Below the pieces are notes generated by a model that saw only the letters and a program-made list of their open reading frames with translations, had not been told where the DNA came from and ran no database searches. A stretch of DNA of 64,000 bases from Streptomyces diastaticus subsp. diastaticus (lineage in GTDB: Bacteria; Actinomycetota; Actinomycetes; Streptomycetales; Streptomycetaceae): positions 1,397,501-1,461,500 of the forward strand of contig NZ_BLLN01000002.1 of the NCBI RefSeq assembly GCF_011170125.1, read 5' to 3'. This document shows, piece after piece, positions 36,354 to 39,364 of the stretch. The position numbers and the translations under genes were made by a program. How positions within the stretch are numbered: the first letter of the stretch is position 1; each line of letters starts with the position of its first letter.

Positions 36354-38036
<1,683 letters not shown>

Positions 38037-38171
38037 GGGTGTCCCTGGGATGCGTACGGACCGTGGGCGCGGAAGAGCGCGTTCCGGCAGGCCCGGGCGT
38101 GCCGGCGGACATCCCCGCCTCAGGGTGGCGGACGCGCGGCTCAGCTCACGGGGCGCGGAACGCGCTCGCGC
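38037..38171 (-). promoter_or_regulatory. putative attenuator leader of the ABC-F gene
   Basis: Between the leader peptide and the ABC-F ATG the transcript carries GAGCGCGTTCC (38167-38157) and its exact complement GGAACGCGCTC (38085-38075), an 11-bp long-range stem starting 4 nt after the leader stop codon. Inside lie smaller hairpins, including CCGGCA with TGCCGG. A ribosome stalled on the leader peptide would cover the first arm and free the second. AGGGA precedes the ABC-F ATG. Confidence 0.6.
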
Positions 38172-38204
38172 TCAGCGGAAGTAGTAGTACGAGTACATAC
38201 GCAT
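38172..38204 (-). CDS. leader peptide MRMYSYYYFR upstream of the ABC-F gene
   Basis: A 10-residue frame with five aromatic residues, four of them Tyr, ends 135 nt before the ABC-F start. Short leader peptides that stall drug-bound ribosomes control resistance ABC-F and erm genes. A -10-like TAGCCT ends 6 nt before the ATG, which would make the transcript start at or next to the ATG (a leaderless leader). A second in-frame ATG is codon 3. No other role is apparent. Confidence 0.7.
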   Translation of the reverse strand: MRMYSYYYFR

Positions 38205-38210
38205 GAGGCC

Positions 38211-38241
38211 AGGCTAACGGGGCCGGGCCGGACGCCGCCAA
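38211..38241 (-). promoter_or_regulatory. tentative promoter of the ABC-F leader
   Basis: On the minus strand TTGGCG (38241-38236) and TAGCCT (38216-38211) are 19 bp apart. The spacing is long, so this is tentative. Confidence 0.35.
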
Positions 38242-38284
38242 CGGTTTCTCGCGGGCGGCCCACCTGTAGCCTCCGTCCGGCCGC

Positions 38285-39364
38285 TCAGAGCCGGGGCGCG
38301 GGGTCCTCGGCGGCGGCCACGGTCTCCGGGCCGGGTGCCGCCTCGACGGAACCGGAAGCCGCGGGCTGCTCGGCCGCCGGTGCCGCGGCCTGCGGAAGCC
38401 GGTCCGCCAGCTCGGCGGCCCGGGCGCGGTTGCGGTGGGCGGTGCGGAAGGCGTCCCAGGTCAACAGGGTCAGCGCCAGCCAGACCAGGCCGAAACCGGC
38501 CCAGCGCTCCGGCGGCATCTCCTCCTTGAAGTAGAGGACGCCCAGCACGAACTGGAAGACCGGCGCCAGGTACTGGAGCAGCCCCAGCGTGGAGAGCGGC
38601 ACCCGGATCGCCGCCGCGCCGAAGCAGACCAGCGGCACCGCCGTCACCACGCCGGTCAGCGCCAGCAGCACCGCGTGCCCGCCGCCCGCCGTCCCGAAGG
38701 TCGACTCGCCGCGCGCGCCGAGCCACAGCACGAAACCGAGCGCCGGCAGGAACTGGATCGCGGTCTCGGCCGCCAGCGACTCGACACCGCCGAGGTTCAC
38801 CTTCTTCTTGACCAGGCCGTAGGTCGCGAAGGAGAAGGCCAGCACGAGGGAGATCCAGGGCGGCTGCCCGTAGCCGAAGGCGAGGACCAGCACCGCGGCG
38901 AGTCCCGTGCCGACCGCCGCCCACTGGACGGGGCGCAGCCGCTCCTTCAGGAGCAGCACCCCCATGGCGATGGTCACCAGCGGATTGATGAAGTAGCCGA
39001 GCGACGCCTCGACCACGTGGTTGCTGTTGACCGACCAGATGTACAGGCCCCAGTTGACGGTGATCACGGCCGCCGCCACCGTCACGAGGCCGAGCCGGCG
39101 CGGCTGGCGCACCAGCTCGCCCGCCCAGCTCCAGCGACGCAGCACCACCAGCACGATCCCCACCACGGCCAGCGACCAGACCATGCGGTGGGCCAGGATC
39201 TCCCCGGCCCCGGCGGGCTTCAGCAGCGGCCAGAAGAGCGGCACGAGGCCCCACATGCTGTACGCGGCGACGCCGTTGAACAGCCCGGCCCGGGCCGAGA
39301 GGGCGCCCGCCGTCGCCTCCGGTGGCGCGGGCGGCGCGGGTGCGGTGGACGACGACGGCTTCAC
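38285..39364 (-). CDS. rarD: RarD-type EamA family transporter
   Basis: A 359-residue membrane protein of the drug/metabolite transporter superfamily with ten helices in two EamA repeats. The RarD subfamily is indicated by GVAAYSMWGLVPLFWPLL, AHRMVWSL, NWGLYIWSVNSNHVVEASLGYFINPL and VPLVCFGAAA. A disordered Ala/Pro tail of about 55 residues follows. The GTG at 39364 gives a normal N-terminus. It is divergent from a HxlR regulator 77 bp away, which may control it. The substrate is unknown. Confidence 0.9.
   Translation of the reverse strand: MKPSSSTAPAPPAPPEATAGALSARAGLFNGVAAYSMWGLVPLFWPLLKPAGAGEILAHRMVWSLAVVGIVLVVLRRWSWAGELVRQPRRLGLVTVAAAVITVNWGLYIWSVNSNHVVEASLGYFINPLVTIAMGVLLLKERLRPVQWAAVGTGLAAVLVLAFGYGQPPWISLVLAFSFATYGLVKKKVNLGGVESLAAETAIQFLPALGFVLWLGARGESTFGTAGGGHAVLLALTGVVTAVPLVCFGAAAIRVPLSTLGLLQYLAPVFQFVLGVLYFKEEMPPERWAGFGLVWLALTLLTWDAFRTAHRNRARAAELADRLPQAAAPAAEQPAASGSVEAAPGPETVAAAEDPAPRL

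Follow-up and report, generated by a model that had tools for sequence, protein, structure and literature searches.

An aromatic leader peptide, predicted to be leaderless, as a candidate anti-Shine-Dalgarno switch upstream of TlrC-like ABC-F genes in Streptomyces

The ABC-F gene considered here lies in a stretch of 64,000 nucleotides from Streptomyces diastaticus subsp. diastaticus (the window, in which position 1 is the first letter) and is preceded by a short open reading frame (ORF) for the aromatic peptide MRMYSYYYFR. The leader ORF, its frame, its aromatic run, its spacing from a -10 box, and a covarying complementarity between the leader end and the Shine-Dalgarno sequence (SD) of the ABC-F gene are all shown by comparison with relatives, and folding models predict that the SD opens when the leader is occupied. 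From these features we infer a leaderless start, translation of the leader, stalling, and induction by a drug. The reading that we favor, with a probability of roughly two in three, is translational attenuation, in which a leaderless ORF would carry an anti-SD in its own codons that is masked by a drug-stalled ribosome.

The initial annotation had placed the leader at 38204 to 38172, and it is indeed found there on the minus strand, with the codons ATG CGT ATG TAC TCG TAC TAC TAC TTC CGC TGA and, on inspection of the upstream sequence, no SD ahead of its ATG. The upstream RarD gene ends 80 nt before the leader and stands outside the proposed switch (Table 1). The ABC-F ATG is at 38036, with CAGGGA ahead of it. 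Its product scores 691.2 bits against NF000171 (TlrC/CarA/OleB/SrmB ABC-F), below the curated cut-off of 800, and 399.4 bits against NF000355 (ribosomal protection-like ABC-F), above the cut-off of 380; by these profiles it belongs to the latter family and is a relative of TlrC, CarA, OleB, and SrmB, not a member of their group by the curated cut-off. No Rfam family matched within 37900 to 38400 at an E value of up to 1.

Table 1. Features of the leader region and its neighbors in the window.
Feature	Position	Strand	Basis
Upstream gene, EamA-family transporter RarD	38285..39364	-	TIGR00688, 207.5 bits (cut-off 130.15)
WblC/WhiB7-type A-rich block and -35-like element, GAAACC and TGGCGG (putative)	38235..38248	-	sequence against consensus
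-10 box TAGCCT, 6 nt 5' of leader ATG	38211..38216	-	sequence and comparison
Leader ORF MRMYSYYYFR, UGA stop, predicted leaderless	38172..38204	-	sequence and comparison
Leader nt 1-9, AUGCGUAUG	38196..38204	-	predicted partner 38058-38050, pair probabilities 0.66-0.99
CGUACGCAU, predicted partner of leader nt 1-9, directly 5' of SD	38050..38058	-	folding
UCC(G)CUG at leader end, weak candidate anti-SD	38173..38179	-	read from sequence
5' arm of post-stop 12-bp helix, GAGCGCGTTCCG	38156..38167	-	sequence, shuffles
3' arm of post-stop 12-bp helix, CGGAACGCGCTC	38075..38086	-	sequence, shuffles
SD AGGGA of ABC-F gene	38042..38046	-	sequence; similar element in relatives
ABC-F ATPase, 560 aa, TlrC/CarA/OleB/SrmB-like ribosomal-protection type	36354..38036	-	NCBIfam profiles

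Relatives were collected in two sets. A relative is encoded at 139 loci, 80 of which were kept; the first 40 of these (L031 to L070), all actinobacterial, were examined and comprise 39 Streptomyces and 1 Kribbella from named genomes, L071 to L110 being loci of other phyla with at most 33% identity. A short upstream ORF ending in an aromatic run is present in 37 of the 40, while L058, L060, and L061 (59 to 61% identity) have no aromatic leader and, by eye, another gene ends directly upstream. The second set, from 121 Streptomyces genomes, has 92 ABC-F places, 39 with at least 65% identity and 53 others, and the aromatic leader stands at 38 of the 39 orthologue hits (own gene counted, three partial). 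The sole hit without it, L143, probably lost its leader by rearrangement because a gene identified by eye as LuxR-like overlaps the beginning of the ABC-F frame (L143/L203). Conservation of the peptide in Streptomyces orthologues, which the first description of this locus named as a check, thus extends to both frame and aromatic run, and its likening of the layout to ribosome-mediated attenuation of resistance genes fits a leader ORF that is conserved in orthologues and predicted to be translated. The ABC-F paralogue of the same genome, L002 (53%), has no such leader in its upstream stretch as read.

Joined, the two sets give 75 loci, some genomes occurring in both, with 69 distinct leader-to-gene sequences. 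Examples of the leaders are MGSYYFFL, MGSYRFYFFR, MRSYYYFR, MFAHYYFL, MHLFFL, and, from Kribbella, MHYLFFV. The typical end is made up of four aromatic residues, one R, L, V, or P, and a UGA, which is the stop codon in all 69. Counting back from the stop, position -2 is F in 69/69, and an aromatic residue is found at -3 in 65/69, at -4 in 62/69, and at -5 in 65/69, with only 8/68 at -6. The last residue is never aromatic (R 31, L 29, V 6, P 3). In a tree of 62 ABC-F proteins like leaders tend to share a protein clade, and the window forms one clade with L033 of S. albidoflavus (91% identical).

That the leader is a chance ORF was rejected by a scan of 1,178,230 strand-bases of Streptomyces DNA, made up of the window and 97 loci, many of them holding an ABC-F leader and some coming from the same genome twice. 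The scan holds 2428 ATG or GTG ORFs of 5 to 14 codons, of which 73 have TAnnnT 5 to 8 nt upstream and 106 are at least 40% aromatic; all 66 that combine both properties encode a peptide found among the listed ABC-F leaders. The leader of the window is accordingly judged real. Three leader patterns of fixed length gave 13 matches in the 121 Streptomyces genomes, 12 of them at known ABC-F places and the thirteenth upstream of a further ABC-F gene matching the S. wuyuanensis locus L062, and reversed patterns gave none in the same genomes. With their fixed spacings and lengths the patterns catch 12/39 orthologue places and not the ten-codon leader of the window. In the S. wuyuanensis-like loci (L202 and L062) the leader is kept though the ABC-F coding sequence, by eye, seems to be without an internal segment beyond its first Walker B motif.

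The start of the transcript can be predicted from the promoter. A TAnnnT lies 6 to 7 nt ahead of the start codon in 69/69 distinct aromatic leaders and in 12 MGSL-type leaders, described below. No -10 rule was used in finding the 37 leaders of the first set, and every one of them has TAnnnT; a -10 was required by the finding rule for GTG-start leaders, for those without two adjacent terminal Y/F, and for MGSL. In S. lividans, one study gives a mean of 6.3 nt from the -10 to the transcript start, with 17% of transcripts leaderless (PMC8079986). All 69 combine a -10 box 5 to 8 nt ahead of the start codon with the lack of an SD, the mark of a leaderless mRNA. The aromatic leader is therefore very probably leaderless, with a predicted transcript start at A38204 in the window, and the leaderless start proposed earlier gains support from this spacing.

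The same promoters may be under WblC control. The WblC/WhiB7 consensus is given as GAAAWY, 3 nt, and TKGMNN (PMC7157823), and the criterion applied was GAAAWY 3 nt before TKGMNN followed by 16 to 19 nt to TAnnnT. The window has GAAACC (one mismatch), 2 nt, TGGCGG, 18 nt, and TAGCCT. Across relatives an AT-rich block (77 to 86% AT, three columns) occupies the place of GAAAWY in WblC/WhiB7 promoters, and 19 of 81 distinct leaders, a group to which the window does not belong, have exact GAAAWY 5' of the -10, against a mean of 0.6 and a maximum of 3 in base shuffles. WblC control of the leader promoter is possible on this pattern. Separately, an inverted repeat AGACG...CGTCT is seen near or within the promoter in 16 of the 81, mostly of the MAFYFFL-type and MGSL groups (L116, L121, L122, L126, L131, L133, L134, L138, L139, L142, L152, L158, L159, L166, L178, and L182). 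It looks like a putative repressor operator, perhaps of the TetR kind, added to the attenuator.

What covaries best in these leaders is their end. By duplex scoring, the final codons of the leader can pair with the ABC-F SD, in many loci as CUUUCUCUGA/UCAGGGAAAG or near it, and variants of the SD are accompanied by a matching change in the leader at L031 (CUUCCUGUGA/UCACAGGAAG), L035 (CUACUUCCUGU/ACAGGAAGUAG), L055 (UUCCUCUGA/UCAGAGGAA), L139 (CUUCCCCUGA/UCAGGGGAAG), and L138 (UACUUUCUCUG/CAGGGGAAGUA). Leader ends of the R class, CUUCCGCUGA, usually have one bulged G in the SD pairing. At L037 and L046 the SD is altered and the leader unmatched (-4.4 and -6.1 kcal/mol), and the aromatic leader of Kribbella L063 has no clear leader-end/SD pairing by duplex scoring. 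Read across the alignment, the last residue and the SD change together in several orthologues with the aromatic run constant; comparison thus shows leader ORFs that carry a complement of the SD, a presumed anti-SD, in their own codons, and a complementarity that covaries.

Cognate leader-end/SD duplexes score -11.28 kcal/mol versus -9.89 (sd 0.22) when leaders are swapped, and 0/5000 swaps among 57 distinct pairs were as good, although such tests overstate significance since relatives share both sides of the pairing. Four of five control pairings also gave low counts of swaps as good, namely leader start/SD (0/2000), leader end/-45..-25 (2/2000), leader end/gene start (71/2000), and post-stop/-75..-20 (67/2000); only post-stop/SD did not (1877/2000). 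Because relatedness inflates the test, it was redone on a reduced set of 17, made up of one row for each distinct leader end (10, the first met) and seven outlying leaders picked by eye, with cognate pairs at -12.32 versus -9.36 kcal/mol and 0/5000 swaps as good. Codon choice points the same way. The codons in use pair more strongly than synonymous recodings of the same peptide, with a mean advantage of 1.56 kcal/mol, and beat the mean in 51/69 leaders (Wilcoxon p 2e-7). The penultimate Phe is encoded by the rare TTT in 19/69 leaders, always before CTC, compared with 2/88 other leader Phe codons and 15/550 in ABC-F genes. From the recoding and TTT results, the last residue therefore seems to be set by the RNA. 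At -4 and -5, where the aromatic residues lie for the most part beyond the SD pairing and are kept by the different codons UAC, UUC, CAC, and UGG, it seems to be the peptide that counts.

The initial annotation had drawn attention to another element, the repeat GAGCGCGTTCC that starts at 38167, four nt after the leader stop, and that recurs as its exact reverse complement GGAACGCGCTC from 38085, 82 nt further along and before the ABC-F ATG. Both copies are as described, and the pairing can be lengthened to 12 bp (38167-38156 with 38086-38075). In dinucleotide shuffles of the 168-nt stretch, inverted repeats of at least 11 bp arise in 16/2000 and of at least 12 bp in 6/2000, so that the repeat is unusual for such GC-rich DNA yet not compelling alone. 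The post-stop/pre-SD duplex of the window has -37.5 kcal/mol (1/200 shuffles as good), and the whole-leader fold has a z of -2.3 (5/200 as good). Among 81 distinct leaders, only the window and L033 have the repeat sequence, the others differing there; post-stop/pre-SD pairing has a mean z of -0.79, with 16/81 below -2, little above chance. The repeat was therefore rejected as a conserved element; what covaries is the leader end with the SD.

In the window itself that pairing is weak. UCC(G)CUG (38179-38173) can form 6 bp with CAGGGA (38047-38042) around a bulged G, in the register of the R-class leaders, and duplex scoring picks another register (UUCC/GGGA, and GAGCG with CGC and UC) at -8.2 kcal/mol. 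The mechanism of the window clade is inferred from its relatives for this reason. Its lock is predicted to consist of leader nt 1 to 9 paired with the 9 nt before the SD, together with the post-stop 12-bp helix; one U-G wobble in the former helix is a C-G pair in L033. With the leader of the window blocked, SD opening falls from 5.1 to 3.9 kcal/mol and that of the initiation region from 12.6 to 10.1, and a ribosome held at the leader start brings the latter to 8.8. In L033 a stop-stalled block makes hardly any change (SD 3.6 to 3.8, region 14.1 to 13.6). These small effects and the different predicted pairing suggest that the window clade has a variant or weaker lock.

For the group as a whole, folding gives a signal of RNA structure opened by a ribosome on the leader, yet weak in the window and L033. 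These are equilibrium folds, which ignore co-transcriptional folding. When the leader is blocked to nine nt past the stop, the mean cost of opening the SD falls from 7.25 to 4.65 kcal/mol over the 69 aromatic leaders, compared with only 7.25 to 7.07 for an equally long control block downstream. Opening of -20 to +14 of the gene falls from 16.8 to 12.9 with the leader block and to 16.5 with the control (p 1e-10). The SD cost falls by more than 2 kcal/mol in 31/69 with the stop-stalled block versus 6/69 with the control and 18/69 with a start-stalled block. Leaders ending in L or P reach this fall in 20/32 cases and those ending in R or V in 11/37; the MGSL group does so in 4/12, with none for the control.

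Translational attenuation would run as follows. The first nucleotide of the transcript would be the A of the leader AUG or one beside it, and a 70S ribosome would begin the leader without an SD. Under free translation this ribosome would leave at the UGA and the RNA would fold, closing the ABC-F initiation region. In many relatives the last leader codons (F, then L, R, V, or P, then the stop) would pair with the SD, and the post-stop stretch may lengthen the hairpin. In the window clade, leader nt 1 to 9 would pair just upstream of the SD, with the 12-bp helix beyond the stop. A ribosome stalled by a drug that binds the tunnel or the PTC, either far into the aromatic run or on the stop codon, would cover the leader nucleotides, and the initiation region would then open for the ABC-F factor to be made. 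Macrolides seem the likeliest inducers because the protein is TlrC-like and the anti-SD lies at the ORF end, and the more frequent opening by stop-stalled than by start-stalled blocks would likewise favor late-stopping drugs such as macrolides. The ARE4 subfamily, TlrC included, is credited with macrolide and streptogramin B resistance (PMC10201436).

Transcription attenuation remains the main rival, above all for the window. The post-stop helix, 12 bp in the window, would here be a terminator that a ribosome stalled at the stop prevents from forming, as in MsrD. The helix is strong for a stretch of this composition, as the shuffles indicate, and its 5' arm, beginning 4 nt beyond the leader stop, falls within the footprint of a ribosome positioned on that codon; a premature terminator is also described for lmrC of Streptomyces lincolnensis (PMC8546547) and a Rho-independent one for msrD (PMC10314930). 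It sits less well with this that 37900 to 38400 holds no terminator-like hairpin with a T run (0 sites; terminators without a T run are possible) and that, scoring T content alone, an 8-mer with at least 5 T lies between leader and gene in only 10/81 distinct leaders. Post-stop pairing is also near chance on average, whereas SD pairing covaries. Since it is the SD pairing that covaries, translational attenuation is the likelier, and we regard control by a terminator as unlikely.

It is also conceivable, if improbable, that the peptide is irrelevant, in that any slow ribosome on a short leaderless ORF would open the SD and the aromatic residues would merely follow from a pyrimidine-rich anti-SD. 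The last residue (R, L, V, or P) does vary in step with the SD in several loci, and leaders such as MGSL, MGTLLILL, MKS, and MIF have little peptide sequence in common. The aromatic residues at -4 (62/69) and -5 (65/69), which lie mostly outside the pairing and are kept through four different codons, are hard to account for in this way. We give still less credence to an amino-acid sensor in which the aromatic codons would read a shortage of Tyr or Phe, like the leaderless trpL, leuL, and ilvL of Streptomyces. Leaderless leader peptides rich in one amino acid do precede biosynthesis and tRNA-synthetase genes in S. lividans (PMC8079986), and WblC attenuation is reported to respond to antibiotics and amino-acid starvation alike (PMC12421871). 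Here, however, Y, F, H, W, and L all occur at the same position of the run, so that no single tRNA is read, the gene downstream encodes a ribosome-protection factor, and the sister MGSL and outlying MKS leaders have zero aromatic residues.

The MGSL leaders come from the more distant places of the 121 genomes, 51 of 53 of which were fetched (L149 to L199; G073 and the already examined L002 were left out). In 12/51 of these loci, which form a second ABC-F subfamily (55 to 58% identical), a predicted leaderless ORF encodes just the peptide MGSL or MGTL. AUGGGUUC is common to this ORF and many aromatic leaders, and the codons of the ORF can pair with the SD at a mean of -13.9 kcal/mol; leader/SD covariation was not demonstrable in this group (538/5000 swaps as good). 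The remaining 39/51 have no leader by the main rule, which required a -10 for leaders of the MGSL kind; MPHSS in L181 was flagged only by a looser rule and was not accepted. By eye, several of these 39 have an apparent divergent TetR-like promoter, and L002, L154, L155, L163, L169, and L179, distant ABC-F loci with no leader, have an apparent divergent TetR-family gene, several with promoter repeats of the GTTGCGTTA kind. This looks like a swap of repressor and attenuator among ABC-F subfamilies.

A search of 197 genomes of the class gave 11 loci from other genera, and leaders were accepted at five: L205 and L212 were flagged by rule, L208 was flagged in part, L216 and L219 were unflagged, and the last three were read by eye. 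They encode MGTLLFFL, MGTLLILL, MRLYFFL, MKS, and one 14-residue peptide, and the leader-end/SD duplex is -11.4 kcal/mol or lower in all five. MLP in L207 and MSH in L217, though flagged by rule, were not accepted. L219 has a poor -10, and at L208 and L216 the -10 lies 10 nt before the ATG, so that these two perhaps have a very short 5' UTR and are not strictly leaderless. L208 and L216, of a different family, have MGTLLFFL and MGTLLILL with UAA stops and TTGACA promoters, about 140 to 170 nt upstream of the ABC-F gene. Adding L209 and L211, which come from the same genus, to the five accepted leaders gives seven, picked by eye from 22 loci; their cognate pairs score -11.56 versus -8.96 kcal/mol for swapped ones, with 35/5000 swaps as good. 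Leader/SD complementarity 5' of ABC-F genes is thus found in Streptomyces and in genomes of three other families. As a tentative generalization, which we hold at somewhat less than even odds, there may be an actinobacterial class of switches in which a sensor ORF at the 5' end of the mRNA is the anti-SD, whose position sets the drugs sensed. An anti-SD in the first codons (MGSL, MKS, MIF) would answer drugs that stop the first peptide bonds, and one after an aromatic run (the MGSYYFFL type) tunnel binders that stop late.

Such an arrangement would allow drug specificity to be predicted from where the anti-SD lies in the leader ORF, and the leaders named here are candidate arrest peptides for TlrC-like ABC-F factors that can be put to the test. 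The same dozen nucleotides would encode both the peptide and the RNA switch, which makes the orthologues ready-made mutants. Tools that search for uORFs with an SD, e.g., uORF4u, may pass over leaderless leaders. Attenuation of ABC-F genes by ribosomes is already known, and so, separately, are leaderless leader peptides. Among the literature matches listed, by their titles and the beginnings of their abstracts, with subscription journals mostly outside, none concerned a leaderless uORF before an ABC-F gene, joined ABC-F attenuation with leaderless leaders, placed an anti-SD in leader codons, or described a leader for TlrC-like ABC-F factors, and a search with six leader sequences found no paper containing them.

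The known systems each share part of this layout. In ermC, masking is done by separate hairpin segments downstream of the leader, unlike in the aromatic leaders. As in the mechanism proposed here, a ribosome stalled on ErmCL frees the SD of the resistance gene (PMC10219788). The leader msrDL is likewise a very short ORF 5' of an ABC-F gene, MsrD, and arrests at its stop codon with a macrolide, but it has a proposed ribosome-binding site, a Rho-independent terminator, and a preference for UAA, whereas the aromatic leaders are predicted to be leaderless, end in UGA in all cases, would mask the SD with leader codons, and have no terminator that was seen. The ARE5 genes lmrC, tiaA, and are5sc are Streptomyces ABC-F genes with short uORFs that answer ribosome-bound drugs; they belong to another subfamily than that of the window, their leaders MLV and MVGDDDISG have ribosome-binding sites, and control is described as by terminator and anti-terminator, with additional translational effects for tiaA (PMC8546547, PMC12421871). 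The leaderless leader ORFs leuL, trpL, and ilvL of Streptomyces also sit on an attenuator but, unlike the aromatic leaders, are read as one-amino-acid sensors before amino-acid or tRNA-synthetase genes (PMC8079986). In cplR of Clostridioides difficile, the uORF MRI stands 5' of an ABC-F gene with an anti-SD element, and the SD is masked in the off state, there by a terminator hairpin (PMC10201436); in the aromatic leaders the anti-SD would be the leader codons themselves, in an ORF predicted to be leaderless.
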